Origin: an uncultured Alphaproteobacteria bacterium
GTDB taxonomy: Bacteria > Pseudomonadota > Alphaproteobacteria > Micavibrionales > CSBR16-224
Assembly (NCBI GenBank): GCA_950054485.1
Contig: CATLPD010000002.1
Span: 62,001-126,000 of the forward strand
Length of the DNA: 64,000 nt
Direction of reading: 5' to 3'
Shown: piece by piece, positions 940 to 49,204 of the stretch
Layout: each line of letters starts with the position of its first letter
Numbering within the stretch: the first letter of the stretch is position 1
Position numbers and translations under genes: made by a program
The notes under the pieces: generated by a model
What the model saw: the letters and a program-made list of their open reading frames with translations, nothing else
Databases searched by the model: none
Told to the model about the DNA's origin: nothing

Positions 940-1182
940 ATGAAAAAAGCAATAATTCTGGCAACTGTATTCATAGGCCTTGCCGTCGCCGGGTGCAGTG
1001 AAACCGGCTATTATCGATATTCTGCCCCTTATACCTATGACCCTAGTGATCCAGATTACACAACGATTTTGAACGTCCCTGAAAACAGGCAATATTTTGA
1101 TGTTTATGAATGGCGTTACACAGATCATGCCCCGGCCAATTACGGTAACGATTCCGTCATTGTTTTTCCTGTGAATGACTAA
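940..1182 (+). CDS. Small putative lipoprotein
   Basis: Signal peptide with lipobox-like 'LAVAGCSETG'; SD-like 'aggggaag' upstream. Confidence 0.6.
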   Translation: MKKAIILATVFIGLAVAGCSETGYYRYSAPYTYDPSDPDYTTILNVPENRQYFDVYEWRYTDHAPANYGNDSVIVFPVND

Positions 1183-1209
1183 AAAGCTTCTGGCTTGTAG
1201 GGCTTATAT

Positions 1210-1232
1210 TTGCTATAAATAGATTATAGCAA
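1210..1232. promoter_or_regulatory. Perfect 9-bp inverted repeat (TTGCTATAA-ATAGA-TTATAGCAA) upstream of hom
   Basis: Read directly from sequence; ends 14 nt before the hom ATG. Confidence 0.6.
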
Positions 1233-1246
1233 TCACGGGGCCAATT

Positions 1247-2539
1247 ATGCACAATCCACTTCGAATCGCCGTTGCGGGACTGGGGACAGTCGGTTCATCT
1301 GTTGTGCGCATTATTCAAAATGAAAAATTATCCCTTTTTGATAAGGCGGGTTCCGATCTTGTTGTTTCTGCCGTATCCGCGCGCGACAAGAACCGCGACC
1401 GTGGTGTCGATCTGGCAAATATCGATTGGCACGATGATGCAAAAAATCTGATACAGGACAATATAGATATTTTGGTTGAGGTCATCGGCGGCGCAGATGG
1501 TGTCGCGTATGACATTGTGAAGGCAGCCTTGGGAAAAGGAATATCGGTTGTAACCGCGAACAAGGCTTTACTTGCGGTACATGGCAGCGAGCTTGCACAG
1601 CTTGCTGAACAGAATAACGCCCACCTTAAATACGAGGCAGCCGTTGCTGGCGCAATCCCTGCAATTAAGGCAGTACGGGAAGGCTTGGCAGCAAACCAAA
1701 TTACCAGTATCTACGGGATATTGAATGGGACGTGTAATTACATTTTAACGCAAATGCGCGAGACGGGCGGTAGCTTTAACGAGATCCTCAAGGAGGCACA
1801 AGACAAAGGCTATGCCGAGGCTGACCCTTCGTTTGATATTGATGGCGTAGATACGGCCCACAAAACGGCTTTATTGGCTGCGGCCGCATTTAATATGGCT
1901 CCTGATTTCAACCATATACCGACACGCGGCATTCGTCATGTGACCTCGACTGATATATGTTACGCTGAAGATCTGGGCTATAAAATCAAACTTTTGGGTG
2001 TAGTGCGAAAAACGGATCTGGGCATCGAGCAATCGGTTGAACCATGCCTTGTTGATCTTAATACACCGCTTGCAGCAATTGATGGCAGTTTAAATGCTGT
2101 TTATACCGAAAGCCCGTTTGCGCACGAAACGCTGATGGTCGGGCGTGGGGCAGGCGGTGATCCGACGGCTTCAGCGGTTGTGGCTGACATTATCGATATC
2201 GCAAGGGGTGTTCATATTTCGCCTTTTGGTGTGCCATCGGAAAAATGGAACGATACTCCCATGGCAGACATGGATGAGCGGATGGTGGCCTCTTATATTC
2301 GTCTGATCGTAGAGGATTCACCAGGCGTGCTGGCTGATATCTCGGGTATTTTGCGTGATGAAAATATTTCAATTCAATCAGCCCTGCAGTTGTCTGAAAT
2401 TACAAAGGGTATCGTGCCGCTGATTTTGATTACCCATACTGTTAAAACGAAAGCCCTGAAAGGGGCGCTTGCAAAAATTGAGAAGTTGCGCTCGGTCAAA
2501 GAACAGCCGTTCACGATGCGCATCATTGAACAGGAGTAA
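1247..2539 (+). CDS. hom: Homoserine dehydrogenase with C-terminal ACT domain
   Basis: 'VAGLGTVGSSVV', 'VVTANKALLAVHG', 'GILNGTCNYILTQM', 'AEADPSFDIDGVDTAHK'. Confidence 0.97.
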   Translation: MHNPLRIAVAGLGTVGSSVVRIIQNEKLSLFDKAGSDLVVSAVSARDKNRDRGVDLANIDWHDDAKNLIQDNIDILVEVIGGADGVAYDIVKAALGKGISVVTANKALLAVHGSELAQLAEQNNAHLKYEAAVAGAIPAIKAVREGLAANQITSIYGILNGTCNYILTQMRETGGSFNEILKEAQDKGYAEADPSFDIDGVDTAHKTALLAAAAFNMAPDFNHIPTRGIRHVTSTDICYAEDLGYKIKLLGVVRKTDLGIEQSVEPCLVDLNTPLAAIDGSLNAVYTESPFAHETLMVGRGAGGDPTASAVVADIIDIARGVHISPFGVPSEKWNDTPMADMDERMVASYIRLIVEDSPGVLADISGILRDENISIQSALQLSEITKGIVPLILITHTVKTKALKGALAKIEKLRSVKEQPFTMRIIEQE

Positions 2540-12387: not shown

Positions 12388-13068
12388 CTAGGCGACTACA
12401 GCCAGTTTGGGGCGCGTCTCTACCTGATCACCCGTTTCATTATTCGAAGACGAGATATTCAAGGCTGTGTGGACTGACTGGGCGATATATTCTGTTGAGC
12501 GGAATTCATTCCAGTCGATACGTATAACCGGGATGTTGAATTTTTTGGCGATTTCAGGCAGGTGCGTCTGATAGCAATTATGCAGATATTCTATATAAGA
12601 CTGAGGGATGTCATTTTCGACATTGCGTCCACGGCTGCGAATCCGTTTCATGCAGGCGGCGGGTGTTGCCTCCAGATAAACGACGGCATCAAGCGGAAAA
12701 TGCAAGCCGTATTCAATGCTTTCATAGATAAGGTTTAAATAGGTGCCACCGGGACGCTCGTGATTTAACAGATTGGCATAGGCAAAGACCAGATCACCGA
12801 TAAAGGATCTTTCGGCCACATAATGTTTGGTTTTATCAAGGCTCAGAGTTTCGCGCAGGCGGTCTTTTATAATCCAGTGATGCAGATCAATACGCTTGTT
12901 GGCATCAAGATAGAATTCTTTCAACAGTCTTTGGAATTCCGGATGATTAATAGGCTCGGGCAGGGGAACCCATTCGCCGCCTTTAAGGTGTTTGGGAAGG
13001 CTATTCAACAAAGTCGACTTGCCAACGCCTATATTTCCTTCAAGTGCAATGCGCAGCGGCTTTGTCAT
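12388..13068 (-). CDS. Deoxynucleoside kinase family protein
   Basis: P-loop 'IALEGNIGVGKSTLL', 'ERSFIGDLVFA', 'YLEATPAACMKRIRSRGR'; ATG at 13068 (MTKPLRIAL) preferred over track start. Confidence 0.88.
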   Translation of the reverse strand: MTKPLRIALEGNIGVGKSTLLNSLPKHLKGGEWVPLPEPINHPEFQRLLKEFYLDANKRIDLHHWIIKDRLRETLSLDKTKHYVAERSFIGDLVFAYANLLNHERPGGTYLNLIYESIEYGLHFPLDAVVYLEATPAACMKRIRSRGRNVENDIPQSYIEYLHNCYQTHLPEIAKKFNIPVIRIDWNEFRSTEYIAQSVHTALNISSSNNETGDQVETRPKLAVVA

Positions 13069-13166
13069 GATACGGCATCCCCCAGATGTCAATAATTGTG
13101 AATATGTACAATATATATAAGTCAGGTGGAAAAATCAAAAAAAAATTAGTTTTCATAATTTTTTAG

Positions 13167-13196
13167 TTGACATTAACATAACGTTAATGATATACA
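13167..13196 (+). promoter_or_regulatory. Putative sigma70-type promoter with dyad operator in the spacer
   Basis: TTGACA (13167-13172), 18-nt spacer, TATACA (13191-13196); perfect 7-bp dyad CATTAAC-ATAAC-GTTAATG at 13171-13189. Confidence 0.55.
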
Positions 13197-13228
13197 TAAT
13201 GCAATAGCCAAAATGAGTTTGGAATCAC

Positions 13229-13256
13229 ATCTGCATACGGAGGTTGTTTTGCAGAT
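13229..13256 (+). promoter_or_regulatory. 5'-leader hairpin enclosing an SD-like sequence
   Basis: ATCTGCA/TGCAGAT perfect 7-bp stem; loop contains ACGGAGG. Confidence 0.5.
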
Positions 13257-13293
13257 ATGACAAAGCAAATGACAATAAGAAGGAGTTTCAGTC

Positions 13294-15114
13294 ATGGCAA
13301 GATTTGGTCGTAACAAAAACAAAGCGAAAACAGTACAGGTAATTGACGAAAAGAAGTATGACTACCGTCAGATTTGGTCAGACCTACATTCTATGGATGA
13401 CAAAGCGGGTTGGAAACTTTCAGATATTCCAGCTGACTTCCAAGCAGATTACGAAAACGAAGACAAACCGGTCCTGATGTATTTCTATGACCTTGCTTTG
13501 GAAAAGCAAACACAAGAAATTGCAGGAAATGATGCCGAGGTTGAAAATATTCAAAACCTAATGAATGAGGTTGCTGAAAAAAGCCAGCTTACAAATCTGG
13601 AAGTTGAAGAGGCTGAATTCTATGTTCGCCGTGTATCATTGTATGACGCTATTAACAAAGAATTGATTGACCTGATCGTTGGTGTTGAAGCCGATCCGGA
13701 AGCAGGTATAGATGGTGTTAAAGGGCTTCTTGAAGGTGCGCATCGTGACGATGCCGGTCTGCCGATTGCGATCAATGATAAAATCAGCGAAGTTGGTAAG
13801 CAGATTTCTGTTGATACCAAAACTTTTAAAGAAGAATACAAGAACATTACAATTATCTTTGACCGTACAACAGGTGAAGTAAAAGAAACACGTGCCAAAA
13901 CCGATCAGGCGTATAAAGAAGCGCAAAATGAAATCGGCATGATTTCAAAAATGATCGAGCAAGGCTCTGACCTTGCAGCTGGCCTTGCCGATGCAGCGAA
14001 GAAAGGTGGCGGATGGTTGTCCGGCAAGCTTTTCGGTCGTAAGAATGTATCATCCGAGCAAAGCCGCTTTGAAGCACACTTTAAAGAATTGGCTGCAAAA
14101 GGCCAGGTTCTGCGTCAATTGCAAAAGCGTTTCGGCGAGATGTCACATGAACTGACATACTTGTACGAGCAAGGTTACAAGCCGGTATTGGAAAACGCCT
14201 TTAAACTGGGACGTAAGTTTGATGAAAACATCCTGCGCTATGACCAGTATATTGGTGCACTAGAAGAGCTGGAGCGTCGCTTTGAAGATTCTGAAGAAGA
14301 TGGCGGCTTCATCGCTGTTGCGCAAAAGAACAGTGAAAACGGTGATGTTTATAAGGCTGTTGTTACACATGTTATGTCTGCGCACGAACAAGTGAAAACA
14401 CGTCTTGCTTGGCTAACAAAAATGAAAGCCGAGGCCGAGCTGAACATGAAAATTGCCAGTAACTATGTTGATGAAGTTGAGAAAGATATTCAGGAAACAA
14501 AATATCAGATCGAACAACTTCCAAGCATGGATCTGCGCCTTGATGGTATTATCATGCAGATGGACCAGATGAAGAACAAGAAAGTCCTGGCGGACAGCCT
14601 TGATTATGATGAAATTCTGGGTCAGTTAAGTGTTGATATTCTTGAGCTTGGTGAAAACGTGAACCAAGAAGTTGCGAATGCCAAGAAAGATCAGCACGAG
14701 CATGTCAGAAGACAACTGGAAAAAGCCGACGAGATCGCGGATCGTAAAGAGCAGCGCCGTCTGGAAGAAATCCAGAACAATGAAGAAGGCCGTAGAATGC
14801 TTGAAGAAGCGTCAGCCACATCCGCTGCCCGTGCAGAGGAGCGTGCCAAGAAACGTGCACTTGAGGGCGACAGCTATGTCAAAAAAGGTGGCTCTGCTTT
14901 GGATACATCCAAAAAAGGCGCCAAAAAGACACCTTCAAACGATGATGGTTCTCTGAACAGCAAGTTTGCTAAGTCAGCAAATGATGACAAGCCGGAAGCG
15001 AAAGAAGAGATTACGTCTGAGGATAAGGCACAGGAGCGCAAAGAAGCTCTGGAAAAGGCCCCTGAGTCAAAGTTTGCAGCCAAGAAACCAGCAAACAAGA
15101 AGCCAGGCAAATAA
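13294..15114 (+). CDS. Large coiled-coil protein of unknown function
   Basis: 606 aa, SD 'agaaggag'; long charged helices and Lys/Ala/Glu-rich C-terminal tail; no signal peptide seen. Confidence 0.85.
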   Translation: MARFGRNKNKAKTVQVIDEKKYDYRQIWSDLHSMDDKAGWKLSDIPADFQADYENEDKPVLMYFYDLALEKQTQEIAGNDAEVENIQNLMNEVAEKSQLTNLEVEEAEFYVRRVSLYDAINKELIDLIVGVEADPEAGIDGVKGLLEGAHRDDAGLPIAINDKISEVGKQISVDTKTFKEEYKNITIIFDRTTGEVKETRAKTDQAYKEAQNEIGMISKMIEQGSDLAAGLADAAKKGGGWLSGKLFGRKNVSSEQSRFEAHFKELAAKGQVLRQLQKRFGEMSHELTYLYEQGYKPVLENAFKLGRKFDENILRYDQYIGALEELERRFEDSEEDGGFIAVAQKNSENGDVYKAVVTHVMSAHEQVKTRLAWLTKMKAEAELNMKIASNYVDEVEKDIQETKYQIEQLPSMDLRLDGIIMQMDQMKNKKVLADSLDYDEILGQLSVDILELGENVNQEVANAKKDQHEHVRRQLEKADEIADRKEQRRLEEIQNNEEGRRMLEEASATSAARAEERAKKRALEGDSYVKKGGSALDTSKKGAKKTPSNDDGSLNSKFAKSANDDKPEAKEEITSEDKAQERKEALEKAPESKFAAKKPANKKPGK

Positions 15115-15121
15115 ATTGAAC

Positions 15122-15151
15122 AGAGCCGGTTCGGACATACCGGCCGGCTCT
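15122..15151 (+). other. Intercistronic hairpin
   Basis: Perfect 8-bp stem AGAGCCGG/CCGGCTCT followed by only a weak U tract. Confidence 0.6.
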
Positions 15152-15182
15152 TTCAAATTTTACGGAGTTTACGGAGGGTAAT

Positions 15183-16514
15183 ATGGGATTTTTTTCAAAA
15201 GATAAAGAGCAAACACCAGAGGAAGAAAAGCAAGAAGCATATCAATCATATGTTGAAACTTTTAAACCTGCTTACAACCAGCCAGCAAAAACAAATTGGG
15301 CCCATATTGATGTAAAAGAAGGTTCGGACGAATTCACCTTTCGCAAATTGGAGCCTGCATCAGTTGCTGGAAAATGGCATGTCTATGAAATCAAAATCTA
15401 TGACACCACTAAGGTTCTGAAAAAAGAATTTGAAACCTTTGCCGGTAAAGATACTAGCGACAAGATTAAGACTTCTGAAAAGAACATCGTTGTTCAGATC
15501 GGAACAATGTCTGTAAAACGCAATGGCGAAGATACGAACGAGCTGACATATCTGGAGGGCATGAATCTTCTGGCCGAGCTAGAGCGCCGTGCAGTCAGCG
15601 AGGCGGCCGGATATTCTTTGGCAGATCTGGAAACCATACAAAAGACATTAAACCTTGCTGATACGAAACTGGTAGAACAGGGCCTGCAAACAGACGAGCT
15701 TGATAACCTTGAGCATTTCTACGAGGTCTGTAAGCGTGAAGGAATCGGCTTTACAATCGAAAACGAAGCTTACCCAATCATGAAGTTGGGCGAAGGCGTA
15801 ACATCCCTTAAGTATACAGGCCGTATTCTTTTGGATGAATTGGCCCGCGTCAAACAAGCATCAAAAGATGCCAAAAAAGGCCCACTGGAAGGGATTGACC
15901 CGAAACTGTCAGATGCTTTCTTTGCTGTACAGCCTAAAAACAAGATTGCCTGCCGTATGCTGGGACTGACAGCGATTGACGAGCGTGACAAGTTCATGAA
16001 GGCTAAGTGCGATGCGATTACGGCCTACAAGGCACTGTATGAGAAGCCTGCAAACTTTGACCTATATGACAGCTTGGACAACCTGATTTCAGAATGCGAA
16101 TACATGTGTGACAATGCGCATAAACAAACACAAAGCTTTGTCGAAGATGACAAGCAGCTTTTGAACCGTATGCGTGTGTCAGCGATCCTGTTGCACTCTC
16201 GCGGTCTTGAAAATGAGATGGTTAAGGCAGTAAAAGAAGGTTCGGGGCGACTGTCTTACAATGAAGACCGTATTAATAGCCTGGAGCGTGCAAAAAACAA
16301 TGTTCTGTACAAAATGGGCTACAACGAAAGCGATATTCAGCAGAATGGAATTAATATTCAGGATGTTACTATCAGCATCGAATATCTGGAAACCGATATC
16401 GAAAGCTATAACAAATTCAAAGAACGCGTATTGGACGCTTTGGATGAAAACCCGACACTGGTTGCTTCGCAATCAAAGGTCATGGGTAGCAAAGCGCTAC
16501 AAAACAAAAGATAA
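15183..16514 (+). CDS. Second coiled-coil/helical protein of unknown function, same operon
   Basis: 443 aa, preceded by 'ACGGAGGG'; N-terminus 'MGFFSKDKEQTPEEEKQ'; no family recognised. Confidence 0.85.
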   Translation: MGFFSKDKEQTPEEEKQEAYQSYVETFKPAYNQPAKTNWAHIDVKEGSDEFTFRKLEPASVAGKWHVYEIKIYDTTKVLKKEFETFAGKDTSDKIKTSEKNIVVQIGTMSVKRNGEDTNELTYLEGMNLLAELERRAVSEAAGYSLADLETIQKTLNLADTKLVEQGLQTDELDNLEHFYEVCKREGIGFTIENEAYPIMKLGEGVTSLKYTGRILLDELARVKQASKDAKKGPLEGIDPKLSDAFFAVQPKNKIACRMLGLTAIDERDKFMKAKCDAITAYKALYEKPANFDLYDSLDNLISECEYMCDNAHKQTQSFVEDDKQLLNRMRVSAILLHSRGLENEMVKAVKEGSGRLSYNEDRINSLERAKNNVLYKMGYNESDIQQNGINIQDVTISIEYLETDIESYNKFKERVLDALDENPTLVASQSKVMGSKALQNKR

Positions 16515-44909: not shown

Positions 44910-45920
44910 TTATAAAGCAGGCCGATTGCGTGCGATAAAGTCGCGCTGTCTGTCTGCGGCCTGATTGCTGCGTTCGACAATATCTTCGTCCCAAGAGGAT
45001 GCAGCCGTGGCAATTTCAGCGCCATTCAGGTCAGTTCCACTTGTCGCTAATGTCCATATGTCCTGTTCTGTTACTTTTTGGCCATGCGCCTCAAAGTCGC
45101 GAAGGGCGGCAATTTTAGCCTGTGCAAATAATCGGCTATCGCCTGTTGTGACAATTTGTTCTATGCGCATATACATCCACATATCAGCTTTAAACGTCAG
45201 ATATTCGACGACGTCTTGGTACTGATCAGTGCCATAGCTTTCGTTTAACATTTGCAAGGTGCCGTAATAATCAGCGTAGTAAGCTTCTTCCAGAAAGAAA
45301 CAATTGGCTTTCAATTGCCAGTGATTTTCAGTCATCATGAAATCATCGTATTTCTGGTTTAGGGCTTCATCTGAAACACGCGTGCCTGTATATGCTGCAT
45401 ACCAGTCTTCTGCTGTGTAGGTGCTATCAGGTGTTGCTATGCCGCAGGCGCGATAAGATTGGCCGCCCGCATTCGCAAAAACGCTTGTTGCGGTGGGGGT
45501 GGGGCCATTAAGTAGTCTGTCATATATGTCCGGATTGAATTCATAGCCTTCAAAAGACATGCTGACGCTTTTGTTTAAAATATCGCGTCCATATGAATAT
45601 TTAAGCGCGTTGGAGACCGAATTAGCGTGCTGCGGAGCCATGCCCAAGCTTTGTGCAAGTTCTGCGACAGATTGTTGAAAGTCTGCATTCACGTCGGCTT
45701 TGGCCTTAAAAATATCTTGGTAAGTGTGGTTTTCAGGAAGCTCTGCGCCGCGCCGTTCGGCATTTTCTCTTAAAATCTCTCTGGCTTCGCTTTGTGAAAG
45801 CTCGAATGCATGTATCTGGTTTCCGTTATTATCCTGAAGTACATATGCGTCAGCAGCCATAGCCGGCGTGCTTACAAGCGATACGGAGGCAAATATTGCC
45901 ATAAGTTTTTTGATTTTCAT
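44910..45920 (-). CDS. Secreted protein, paralogue 1 of the HExxH array, active site degenerate
   Basis: Signal peptide 'MKIKKLMAIFASVSLVSTPAMAADA' (ATG at 45920); aligns by eye with 47033-48049; 'HWQLKANCFFLEEAYYADYY' where the paralogue has 'WHERSHCFFIGNEAHADYY'. Confidence 0.8.
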   Translation of the reverse strand: MKIKKLMAIFASVSLVSTPAMAADAYVLQDNNGNQIHAFELSQSEAREILRENAERRGAELPENHTYQDIFKAKADVNADFQQSVAELAQSLGMAPQHANSVSNALKYSYGRDILNKSVSMSFEGYEFNPDIYDRLLNGPTPTATSVFANAGGQSYRACGIATPDSTYTAEDWYAAYTGTRVSDEALNQKYDDFMMTENHWQLKANCFFLEEAYYADYYGTLQMLNESYGTDQYQDVVEYLTFKADMWMYMRIEQIVTTGDSRLFAQAKIAALRDFEAHGQKVTEQDIWTLATSGTDLNGAEIATAASSWDEDIVERSNQAADRQRDFIARNRPAL

Positions 45921-45964
45921 ATCGACAATTTGGCATAAACAGTGTCGGGTTTCAAGGGATTTTT

Positions 45965-46003
45965 CAAAAAAATACCCCGGAACAGGTTCGGGGTACCTTT
46001 TGA
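45965..46003 (-). terminator. Terminator downstream of paralogue 2
   Basis: TACCCCG...CGGGGTA hairpin; A run on the plus strand at its left gives a T tract on the minus strand. Confidence 0.7.
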
Positions 46004-46020
46004 AATCGGTTATATTTATG

Positions 46021-47010
46021 CTAGCGGCACTGCGGGCTGGAATATGAAACAGTGATTTCAGATGCAGGCACACGGCACATATTTTGCGCCATCAGGCTTT
46101 CAATATAAGCAAGACTGCGTCTGAATGTATCCTGAATGTGGTCGATAAAATCCAAATCTGTAGGCATATTATTCAGACGATGTTCGTATATCTTCTGATC
46201 CGTATCGAATGCGCCCGGATCGGCTTTATAATCGTTCATTGCCATATGAATATATGTGCCGTTCATAAAATATTTGGAATAAAATTCGACACTACGCATG
46301 GCGTTGTGATTTCTAAGGCCTGACATCATCCAAAGAAAACGCTCTGTCATCTCGGGCTGATCAGCATAGTATCTATCCATGATCTGCAAAGATGCTATGT
46401 AGTCAGCTTGGGGCTCACTCATTTGCATGCAATGGGCGCTTTCATGAAAATTAACGAATTCAGCAAACATCTCACCATATTGTTCAGGAAGGTTAATCGT
46501 CCCTTCAAAGCCTGTCATTTGTTCAAGCCACTGTGATGCACTGTGATTGCGGTCTGCAGATACAACGGCACAGAAATTATCAGAGATTTTAGGGTAGCGT
46601 AAAGCCAGAGGGCCAATACCATTTACAGGTGTCGTCGCGTTCTCATCAAAAATAATTTCTCTGTTACCATTGCTGGCTTTGTAACTGAAAACAGTTGCCA
46701 GATCGCGAGCAAAAATTTGTGCGAGATTCTGATTATAGCCTTGAGTGATCATGTCCTCAAAAATTTTGCCCTGAATATATGTTTTTCTTTCACGATAATA
46801 GCGGGCACTACCGATTTCAAACGAGGTAATTTCATTATATTCCCGTGCTAGCGCCGCGCCTTCTTGCTGGCTAATCGAATATACTGTCACCTCTTGGTTG
46901 CCGTCACTTAATGTATACACTTCCGATGCCGCTGCCGGGGCCCCAACACATGCAGCCGCTGCTGCAAAGGCAGCCATGCACTTTTTCTTTAGGCTTTTTT
47001 TCTTTTTCAT
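46021..47010 (-). CDS. Secreted putative metallopeptidase-like protein, paralogue 2
   Basis: Signal peptide; 'NFHESAHCMQMSEPQADYIASLQIM'. Confidence 0.8.
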   Translation of the reverse strand: MKKKKSLKKKCMAAFAAAAACVGAPAAASEVYTLSDGNQEVTVYSISQQEGAALAREYNEITSFEIGSARYYRERKTYIQGKIFEDMITQGYNQNLAQIFARDLATVFSYKASNGNREIIFDENATTPVNGIGPLALRYPKISDNFCAVVSADRNHSASQWLEQMTGFEGTINLPEQYGEMFAEFVNFHESAHCMQMSEPQADYIASLQIMDRYYADQPEMTERFLWMMSGLRNHNAMRSVEFYSKYFMNGTYIHMAMNDYKADPGAFDTDQKIYEHRLNNMPTDLDFIDHIQDTFRRSLAYIESLMAQNMCRVPASEITVSYSSPQCR

Positions 47011-47032
47011 TTTACTCTCTCCCCAGAGCTAA

Positions 47033-48049
47033 TTACGTCGTCAGTGCAGGTGAACTTCTTCTATCTAAAAGCTCGCGCTGTGTTTGAATTGCTTGTTCTT
47101 CTTTCTGATCCAAGATGCTTTCCCAACGGGCAACTTCAGCCTCAAGAGAGGTTCCTGCAAGAGTTGTCAGGTCAGTCGCCATTGTCCAGATTTCTTCTTC
47201 GCTTAAACGGCGCTGCTGGGTTTTGAAATCCTGCAGGGCAGCAAGCGTTGCGGCGCCGACATGACGGTTTTCATCATTTTTGACAAGATAGTCAGTTGAT
47301 GCCGCGTACATCCACATTTCGGCTTTAAATTCGAGATAGCCGATGATTTCGTCCAGATTATCGCTGTCATAATTTTCATTCAAAAGCTGTAGAACGGCGT
47401 AATAGTCAGCATGCGCTTCGTTTCCGATGAAAAAGCAGTGCGAGCGTTCGTGCCACATTGTCTCGTTACGCATGTAGGTACTATAAATATCAGGCAATAC
47501 ACCATCTTGAATAGCTTGACCTGTAAAGCCTTCGTACCATTGCTCGACTGTGAAATGCGTATCGGGTGCGCCGATTCCGCAAATTGCAAACTTCTCGCCA
47601 TTTGCAAGTGTCACAAGTGCGTGCAACGCACTAGGCGTATAATTTATCGGTTGATCTAAATGCGGGTTAAATTCGTACGCTTGAAAATCCATCCTGCCAT
47701 CATTTTCAACAATATAGCGGCCGTATATATTCGTCAAAGCATTGCTGAGACTGTTCGCCTTGTTTTGATCATAGCCTTCTTCCAGCGCCATATCACGGAA
47801 TTTATCCCGAATGTGCCAGTTGAATAAAACTTTTAAACGATAACTTTCTTGAAGTGAAAGATCCGGGTTTTCGACTTGTGTATCAAGTACCTCGCGCATG
47901 GCTTCACGTGCCTCGCTTTGAGTTACTTCCAGTACGTTGACTTCAGCCCCATAGGTGTTTCGCATAGTATACGCTTCAGCAGCTATCCCCGGCGTGCTAA
48001 ACAGCGCAGCGGCAGCAGCGAAAGCTGCCATTGCAGATTTTTTAAGCAT
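47033..48049 (-). CDS. Secreted putative metallopeptidase-like protein, paralogue 3
   Basis: Signal peptide; 'MWHERSHCFFIGNEAHADYYAVLQLLNENY'. Confidence 0.8.
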   Translation of the reverse strand: MLKKSAMAAFAAAAALFSTPGIAAEAYTMRNTYGAEVNVLEVTQSEAREAMREVLDTQVENPDLSLQESYRLKVLFNWHIRDKFRDMALEEGYDQNKANSLSNALTNIYGRYIVENDGRMDFQAYEFNPHLDQPINYTPSALHALVTLANGEKFAICGIGAPDTHFTVEQWYEGFTGQAIQDGVLPDIYSTYMRNETMWHERSHCFFIGNEAHADYYAVLQLLNENYDSDNLDEIIGYLEFKAEMWMYAASTDYLVKNDENRHVGAATLAALQDFKTQQRRLSEEEIWTMATDLTTLAGTSLEAEVARWESILDQKEEQAIQTQRELLDRRSSPALTT

Positions 48050-48177
48050 GCCAAAATATTAATCATTTATACTTTATGTTCAAGAAGAAAATAAAATAAA
48101 AAATATTATTGTTAATATAAAGGGGTTAAAAGATATAAAATTACATATTAATGTTTATGTATTTAAAACTTAGATTT

Positions 48178-49143
48178 TTAAATGCTTGGAATCGAAGTGT
48201 TTATGATTGTCGGCAGCCGGTTTGGGGTTTGCGAATTCGGATCAACCGTTAGATCCGCGCTAAGGGCAGCGGCATAGATATTGTCAGTATTACCAAATTT
48301 TTCCGGGTCTTCATTAAAGTCATCAATTGCCTTAACTATCGTCTCATAGCAATTATCATACTCAGGAAGCAGGTGGTTATTGACCTGACCGAAATACCTG
48401 TAGCTTGCAAATAGATGCAAGAAATCTATGCGGCGTCGAAGGTCTTGTGGATCAGTGGCCATGCTCAGGATATGGAGGCTGGCTGCATAATCCGCACGCT
48501 GTTCATCTTCGCCCACAGGGCAATGTGCTTTTTCATGCTCGCTTGCGAATTCAGCAAAATAGGGCCCAAAGCTTTCTTGTTCATCTGTAAGGTCAAAAAG
48601 GCCCTGTGGTAAGTCCATCATGTTTGAAAGCCACTCGCGCGCTGTAAAGTTTGAGTCACTTTTGGCTGAAATGCAGAAATTTAAAGTCAGCGGGCTCGTG
48701 TATCCCAGTTCATAGACCTTAAAAGGTGTGGCGGTTACCATACTGTTGCCGGCAGTTGGTGATCTGTAATTAAATGAGTGTTGAGCAAGCGGATTTTGAG
48801 AGTCTACCCTATATATCATTGCGGCAACCGTTGCCATGGCACTTGCCCGCACTGGGTTTATATCAAATTGCATGATAAGACGTTGCCTCATTACCTGAGA
48901 GAAGCCTGACATCATAGCTATTTCTTGTTCATAACTGAGCGTTTCAATATCAGGGAAGCGTTCGTTTTTAATATTTTGATATATTTCAGCAGCTTCAGAT
49001 TGACTGATGGCTATATGCTCCATGTCTTCGCCGCCCCACGGTGGGGTGATGAACCCGCGCGATTGTGCTAGTGCAGGCGTGGAAGATGCCAGTGCAAGGC
49101 CAGCGAACACGCTGCTGAGTGCTTTTAATTTATGTTTTTTCAT
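48178..49143 (-). CDS. Secreted putative metallopeptidase-like protein, paralogue 4
   Basis: Signal peptide 'MKKHKLKALSSVFAGLALASSTPALAQ'; 'SEHEKAHCPVGEDEQRADYAASLHIL'. Confidence 0.8.
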   Translation of the reverse strand: MKKHKLKALSSVFAGLALASSTPALAQSRGFITPPWGGEDMEHIAISQSEAAEIYQNIKNERFPDIETLSYEQEIAMMSGFSQVMRQRLIMQFDINPVRASAMATVAAMIYRVDSQNPLAQHSFNYRSPTAGNSMVTATPFKVYELGYTSPLTLNFCISAKSDSNFTAREWLSNMMDLPQGLFDLTDEQESFGPYFAEFASEHEKAHCPVGEDEQRADYAASLHILSMATDPQDLRRRIDFLHLFASYRYFGQVNNHLLPEYDNCYETIVKAIDDFNEDPEKFGNTDNIYAAALSADLTVDPNSQTPNRLPTIINTSIPSI

Positions 49144-49204
49144 AGAACGTCTTTTTTTATAAGCCTGAAAATAATACCACAGAGCTTAAGTTATGTAAAT
49201 AAAA

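Follow-up and report, generated by a model that had tools for sequence, protein, structure and literature searches.

Three of the four predicted proteins encoded at positions 44910-49143 of the window, the 64,000-nucleotide stretch of contig CATLPD010000002.1 analysed here, carry an HExxH motif followed closely by ExxAD, and the question raised by this locus is whether it encodes exported zinc peptidases and, if so, of which family. A first-pass annotation had described four consecutive minus-strand genes of about 320-340 aa, each with a signal peptide, and this description holds: the genes lie head to tail in the transcription order D, C, B, A, and encode products of 321-338 aa that all begin with a Sec-type signal. 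The coordinates given there for the three HExxH segments were exact. The features are as follows.

44910..45920, minus strand: gene A, 336 aa, ATG start; exported paralogue without the catalytic residues, predicted pseudoenzyme
45303..45317, minus strand: QLKAN of gene A, aligned to the HExxH of B, C and D
45960..46003, minus strand: terminator-like hairpin with a T run after it, in the B-A intergenic gap (-17.1 kcal/mol, z -2.9)
46021..47010, minus strand: gene B, 329 aa, exported; putative zinc ligands H189, H193 and E199, putative general base E190; D203; Cys147 and Cys194
46432..46446, minus strand: HESAH of gene B
47033..48049, minus strand: gene C, 338 aa, exported; putative ligands H200, H204 and E211, putative general base E201; D215; Cys157 and Cys205, its sole Cys residues
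47438..47452, minus strand: HERSH of gene C
48178..49143, minus strand: gene D, 321 aa, exported; putative ligands H203, H207 and E214, putative general base E204; D218; Cys157 and Cys208
48523..48537, minus strand: HEKAH of gene D
49171..49199, minus strand: promoter-like site upstream of gene D at a distance of 27 bases, TTTACA-17-TATTAT with its second hexamer preceded by TG

The array is flanked by a YchF-like gene (end 44884) and a PrpD-like gene (start 49299), both named by eye from their sequences. Genes C and B are separated by 22 bases. The hairpin between B and A, which is absent from one terminator scan with a loop limit of 8, may give A separate expression, and the count of promoter-like matches across the array region, among them the site upstream of gene D, was barely above that in shuffled sequences. 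No tRNA was found near the array and its G+C content is 44.3%, compared with 45.7% for the window; neither gave any sign of horizontal gain. Elsewhere in the window, at 13294-16514, two genes in a row encode Lys/Glu-rich proteins of 606 and 443 aa that appear coiled-coil-like by eye.

The motif segments read HESAHC-MQMS-EPQADY in B, HERSHC-FFIGN-EAHADYY in C and HEKAHC-PVGED-EQRADY in D. The ExxAD element starts 4-5 residues past HExxHC in these three proteins, placing the Glu that would be the third ligand 5-6 residues past the second His. The Cys/Trp block and the N-terminal S/TQxE motif, both reported earlier as common to all four proteins, were recovered in the alignment of A-D, in which C158, D164, W172, C206 (the Cys of HExxHC), A215 and D216 are invariant (P0001 numbering), as are Q42 and E44 of S/TQxE. 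Homology is strongest between A and C (36% over 325 aa, E 2e-70), and was also detected for B-D (25%, 4e-14), B-C (30%, 7e-10) and C-D (21%, 3e-10). With the motif masked, A-C (5e-54), B-C (8e-7) and B-D (1e-4) were still homologous, and the motif occupies the same aligned columns; hence, its presence in B, C and D is not a chance match.

In the tree, A and C are sisters with support of 99/98, whereas B and D are as divergent from each other as homologues from different genomes. The earlier proposal of expansion by duplication thus stands as far as paralogy is concerned, but, on the alignments and tree, duplication is shown for the A-C pair only and not for B or D. Duplication of a two-gene module (D-C / B-A) was also considered and rejected, the tree supporting A-C alone.

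The annotation had assigned the motif to three of the four genes, which is correct, without spelling out that the site in A is destroyed completely. In the motif columns, A reads QLKANC-FFLEE-AYYADYY. The alignments define replacements of H by Q, E by L and H by N in HExxH and of the third-ligand Glu by Ala213, such that all four catalytic or ligand residues are lost, while Asp217 of ExxAD and Cys159/Cys207 are kept and the reading frame is intact. The branch leading to A is longer than that leading to C (1.02 vs 0.44). In a simple simulation of selection-free drift, limited to substitutions and started from C, none of 500 frames was stop-free at 50% identity, indicating that gene A is under constraint. 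Judged from its sequence, gene A is better described as a retained pseudoenzyme than as a decaying gene. It would have arisen by duplication of C and been kept after losing catalysis, perhaps as a decoy, an inhibitor or a binding partner.

All four N termini consist of Lys/Arg, a hydrophobic run and an A-x-A-like end, as expected for a Sec-type signal peptide, and were recognised both by direct reading and by hydropathy (Kyte-Doolittle means of the four runs of 1.75-2.01 over 13 residues). A Cys immediately after HExxH together with a second Cys 40-46 residues before the motif was found in A, B, C, D and two homologues from other genomes, L009 and L031, all of which have hydrophobic N termini. 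The pair occurs in six of seven members whose N terminus is signal-like or of membrane type vs none of the 14 others, although these counts are not independent given the relatedness of the proteins. The lipoprotein-like L019 has neither Cys. In A, C, L009 and L031, there is no further Cys after residue 30. Both residues survive in A, from which the catalytic residues are gone, and are therefore not catalytic. A structural disulfide is the favoured and probable role of the pair, whose survival in A speaks against a catalytic or cysteine-switch function, and the disulfide suggested in the first-pass annotation gains support from both the co-occurrence with export signals and the persistence in A. 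Such a bond would connect the Cys of the upstream strand to the Cys following HExxH and may fix the end of the active-site helix outside the cytoplasm. The distant member L031 (positions 1045-2049, minus strand, genome G003) has an N terminus of membrane type, and its only Cys residues occupy the two positions seen in the window proteins.

A first scan of genome contigs with the four window proteins gave no match, nor did a tblastn search of plasmid and phage records, and the genome containing the window (2.28 Mb, 12 contigs) includes no copy beyond A-D. At E <= 1e-3, a profile of the core (A8), built from 18 sequences (18 aligned cores from 14 genomes), found matches in 51 of the 145 genomes from the order. 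In a class-wide sample, weaker matches were obtained in 17 of 387 genomes, two of them of the same order, and the best matches outside the order ranged from 4e-9 to 1e-6. Given that profile noise lies near 1e-4 to 1e-3, as seen from ThiE-like false matches of an earlier profile, the weakest of these counts are uncertain. The first core profile also gave weak class-level matches (L038-L040, E 4e-4 to 1e-3), which were discarded as ThiE-like frames with a chance CHxSRH...EQGADY. The nearest relative found, L041 from the metagenome-assembled genome of Micavibrio sp. isolate NAT141, is the same protein as L009; it belongs to the same order but to another family, its N terminus is signal-like, and its two Cys are exactly those of the window proteins.

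Tandem copies were found elsewhere, three in L087, two in L091 and two, adjacent, in L086. The three adjacent genes of L087 (5605-8415, minus strand, genome G003) belong to a wider unnamed HExxH..ExxAD group without signal peptides, and their motifs are HEIAHALT.., HEMLHALT.. and HEMAHSLN..; their genome and that of the window belong to one bacterial family, and the tandem habit is seemingly shared. In L091 (genome G144), two adjacent genes at 253-2318 and one nearby at 13012-13995, of the same wider group, carry HETGHALV.., HETAHALI.. and HETGHLLC... Genome G137 has three members at different places; in one of these, L033 (1111-2328, minus strand), 34 residues separate HExxH from the Glu of ExxAD, and the core is otherwise alignable.

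Across the order, many pairs compared with the motif masked were still related, among them L033/L036 (1e-12) and, at identities of 24-37%, L011/L018 (9e-20), L020/L033 (5e-19), L013/L027 (1e-10) and B-C, which indicates that the motif is kept far above background. By hhalign, the window set matched the rest of the core of the order at 98.7% over 93 columns and two wider groups at ~94%, with a maximum of 44.5% for column-shuffled controls in which HExxH was kept. The array is, on these comparisons, one branch of an order-wide unnamed family. A survey of copy number in neighbouring genomes had been proposed earlier; with 51 of 145 genomes matched and tandem copies recurring, the family is not confined to the array. 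It could still be argued that the motif arose by chance or is degenerate and that A-D are non-enzymatic helical periplasmic proteins, since A was kept without the site and Foldseek found no zincin match, but the motif is invariant across homologues that are related outside it, and this explanation is considered very improbable.

Between the second His and the Glu there are 5 to 34 residues across the order, the upper value being that of L033. The earlier remark that the third ligand would sit unusually close is therefore right as to the short spacing in the window, which is one end of this range. The exact string HExxHxxGxxE occurs in L013, L019, L022, L024, L025, L058, L059 and L064; a literature search for this string found nothing in the collection searched, which is not proof of absence.

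All 18 aligned cores, B, C and D among them, keep HExxH and the Glu after it without exception, and nearly all keep the Asp. ExxAD fits the pattern ExxxD, which marks the glutamate helix in thermolysin and other gluzincins, and hence a gluzincin-type zinc peptidase is the best reading of the site. AlphaFold2 models of B (pLDDT 66.7, pTM 0.70) and C (73.9, 0.74), both built on five sequences and including low-confidence stretches, had one confident helix ending in HExxH and the next helix opening with the Glu, and showed the first Cys in a strand. This predicted order of helices is what a gluzincin needs, but is not proof that the ligands converge. Foldseek searches of the PDB with both models found no solved structure of similar fold, and the model of B had no match among the viral structures of BFVD. 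Foldseek matches to FtsH, IRAP or M17 peptidases were not significant and were not used, and a PDB sequence match to 6md3 (E 0.19) was insignificant.

Taken together, B, C and D are probably exported gluzincin-type zinc peptidases and A their pseudoenzyme, in a family that has no curated name. These proteins would be periplasmic or secreted. Zinc would be held by both HExxH histidines together with the ExxxD Glu, and water activated by the Glu of HExxH; the Asp four residues past the third ligand would orient a ligand His, as that of ExxxD does in thermolysin, and a very short turn would link the active-site helix to the glutamate helix. Of the exported zinc hydrolase family suggested previously, the exported HExxH/ExxxD family is borne out, with the amendment that one of the four is a pseudoenzyme; zinc binding and hydrolysis are predicted. 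A different assignment, in which the site binds zinc but acts on a non-protein substrate, or is merely structural or zinc-sequestering, draws on the retention of one of four copies without the site, which suggests that the function may be partly non-catalytic, and on the fact that peptidase activity is itself a prediction. However, a purely structural site would have no need of the catalytic Glu of HExxH, yet this residue shows the same invariance as the ligands, and almost all HExxH/ExxxD zincins of known activity are peptidases. This assignment is thus regarded as unlikely.

A further proposal, compatible with exported peptidases and adding a target to them, is that A-D are secreted effectors against prey or competitors, with A as a self-protecting decoy. 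The nearest relative is in a Micavibrio-labelled genome, and Micavibrio aeruginosavorus is an obligate predator that feeds on attached prey (PMC6145908). The strong divergence, patchy spread (51/145 genomes) and repeated tandem copies (L087, L091, L086) would also fit an arms race. Against this, the genes surrounding the array, and those at nine loci of homologues, are, by eye, scattered housekeeping-like genes with no obvious secretion system, and the defence library gave just one weak match. The effector proposal is possible though rather doubtful, and a role of A-D in predation is speculation.

For the family of predicted exported peptidases as a whole, a broader suggestion is offered tentatively: it might be an undescribed zincin family largely of one order, with Glu as third ligand and ExxxD at a metzincin-like spacing (HExxHxxGxxE in several members), comprising fast-evolving exported peptidases and a kept pseudoenzyme. 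If right, this would be a new zincin family in which a very short turn connects the active-site helix with the glutamate helix; the wide range of spacers on one scaffold would help to relate Glu-, Asp- and Met-zincin sites; and relatives of the predator Micavibrio would provide testable exported enzymes together with a natural dead copy.

As to known systems, no named family had been recognised at first, and the members likewise gave no convincing match to Pfam or NCBIfam models, or to solved structures; with PADLOC and PHROGs, there were only isolated weak matches of single members. The metzincin motif (HExxHxxGxxH/D) was not matched, as Glu occupies the third position in every aligned member. 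In an HMM-HMM comparison of the kind that the first-pass annotation had recommended, the nearest family by hhalign was DUF4344 (Pfam PF14247, a putative metallopeptidase), over the catalytic motif only. DUF4344 has HE[LI]GH followed by E-D-A-A-D and hydrophobic residues before HExxH, and reached 94% with the order-wide core (maximum 52% for column-shuffled controls keeping HExxH). However, the likeness spans 35-47 columns round the motif, the spacer of DUF4344 is longer, and no window protein or order relative scored above the cut-off of its Pfam model. No tested activity of DUF4344 was found in the literature. For the window proteins alone, hhalign gave no likeness to DUF4344, M78 or M48 beyond control level.

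Peptidase M78 (IrrE/ImmA, PF06114) shares HExxH and a Glu on the following segment, with hhalign values of 64-70% with the core, but this is borderline relative to the shuffled control (maximum 51%) and there was no Pfam match. M78 members are typically cytoplasmic regulators. The mini-zincin Zincin_1/DUF1025 (PF06262) resembles several order relatives in that their HExxHxxGxxE has the spacing of HExxHxxGxxD, and some PF06262 homologues also carry Glu at the third position (PMC3890501). In that family, HExxH lies near the C terminus and there is no signal peptide (PMC3890501), and hhalign was at control level with no Pfam match. Peptidase M48 and thermolysin-like gluzincins follow the same logic of HExxH plus ExxxD, but their spacer is far longer and hhalign with M48 was at control level (7-8%). 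As judged by these comparisons, the family belongs to none of the named families compared (DUF4344, M78, Zincin_1 and M48), yet is gluzincin-like in its predicted working.
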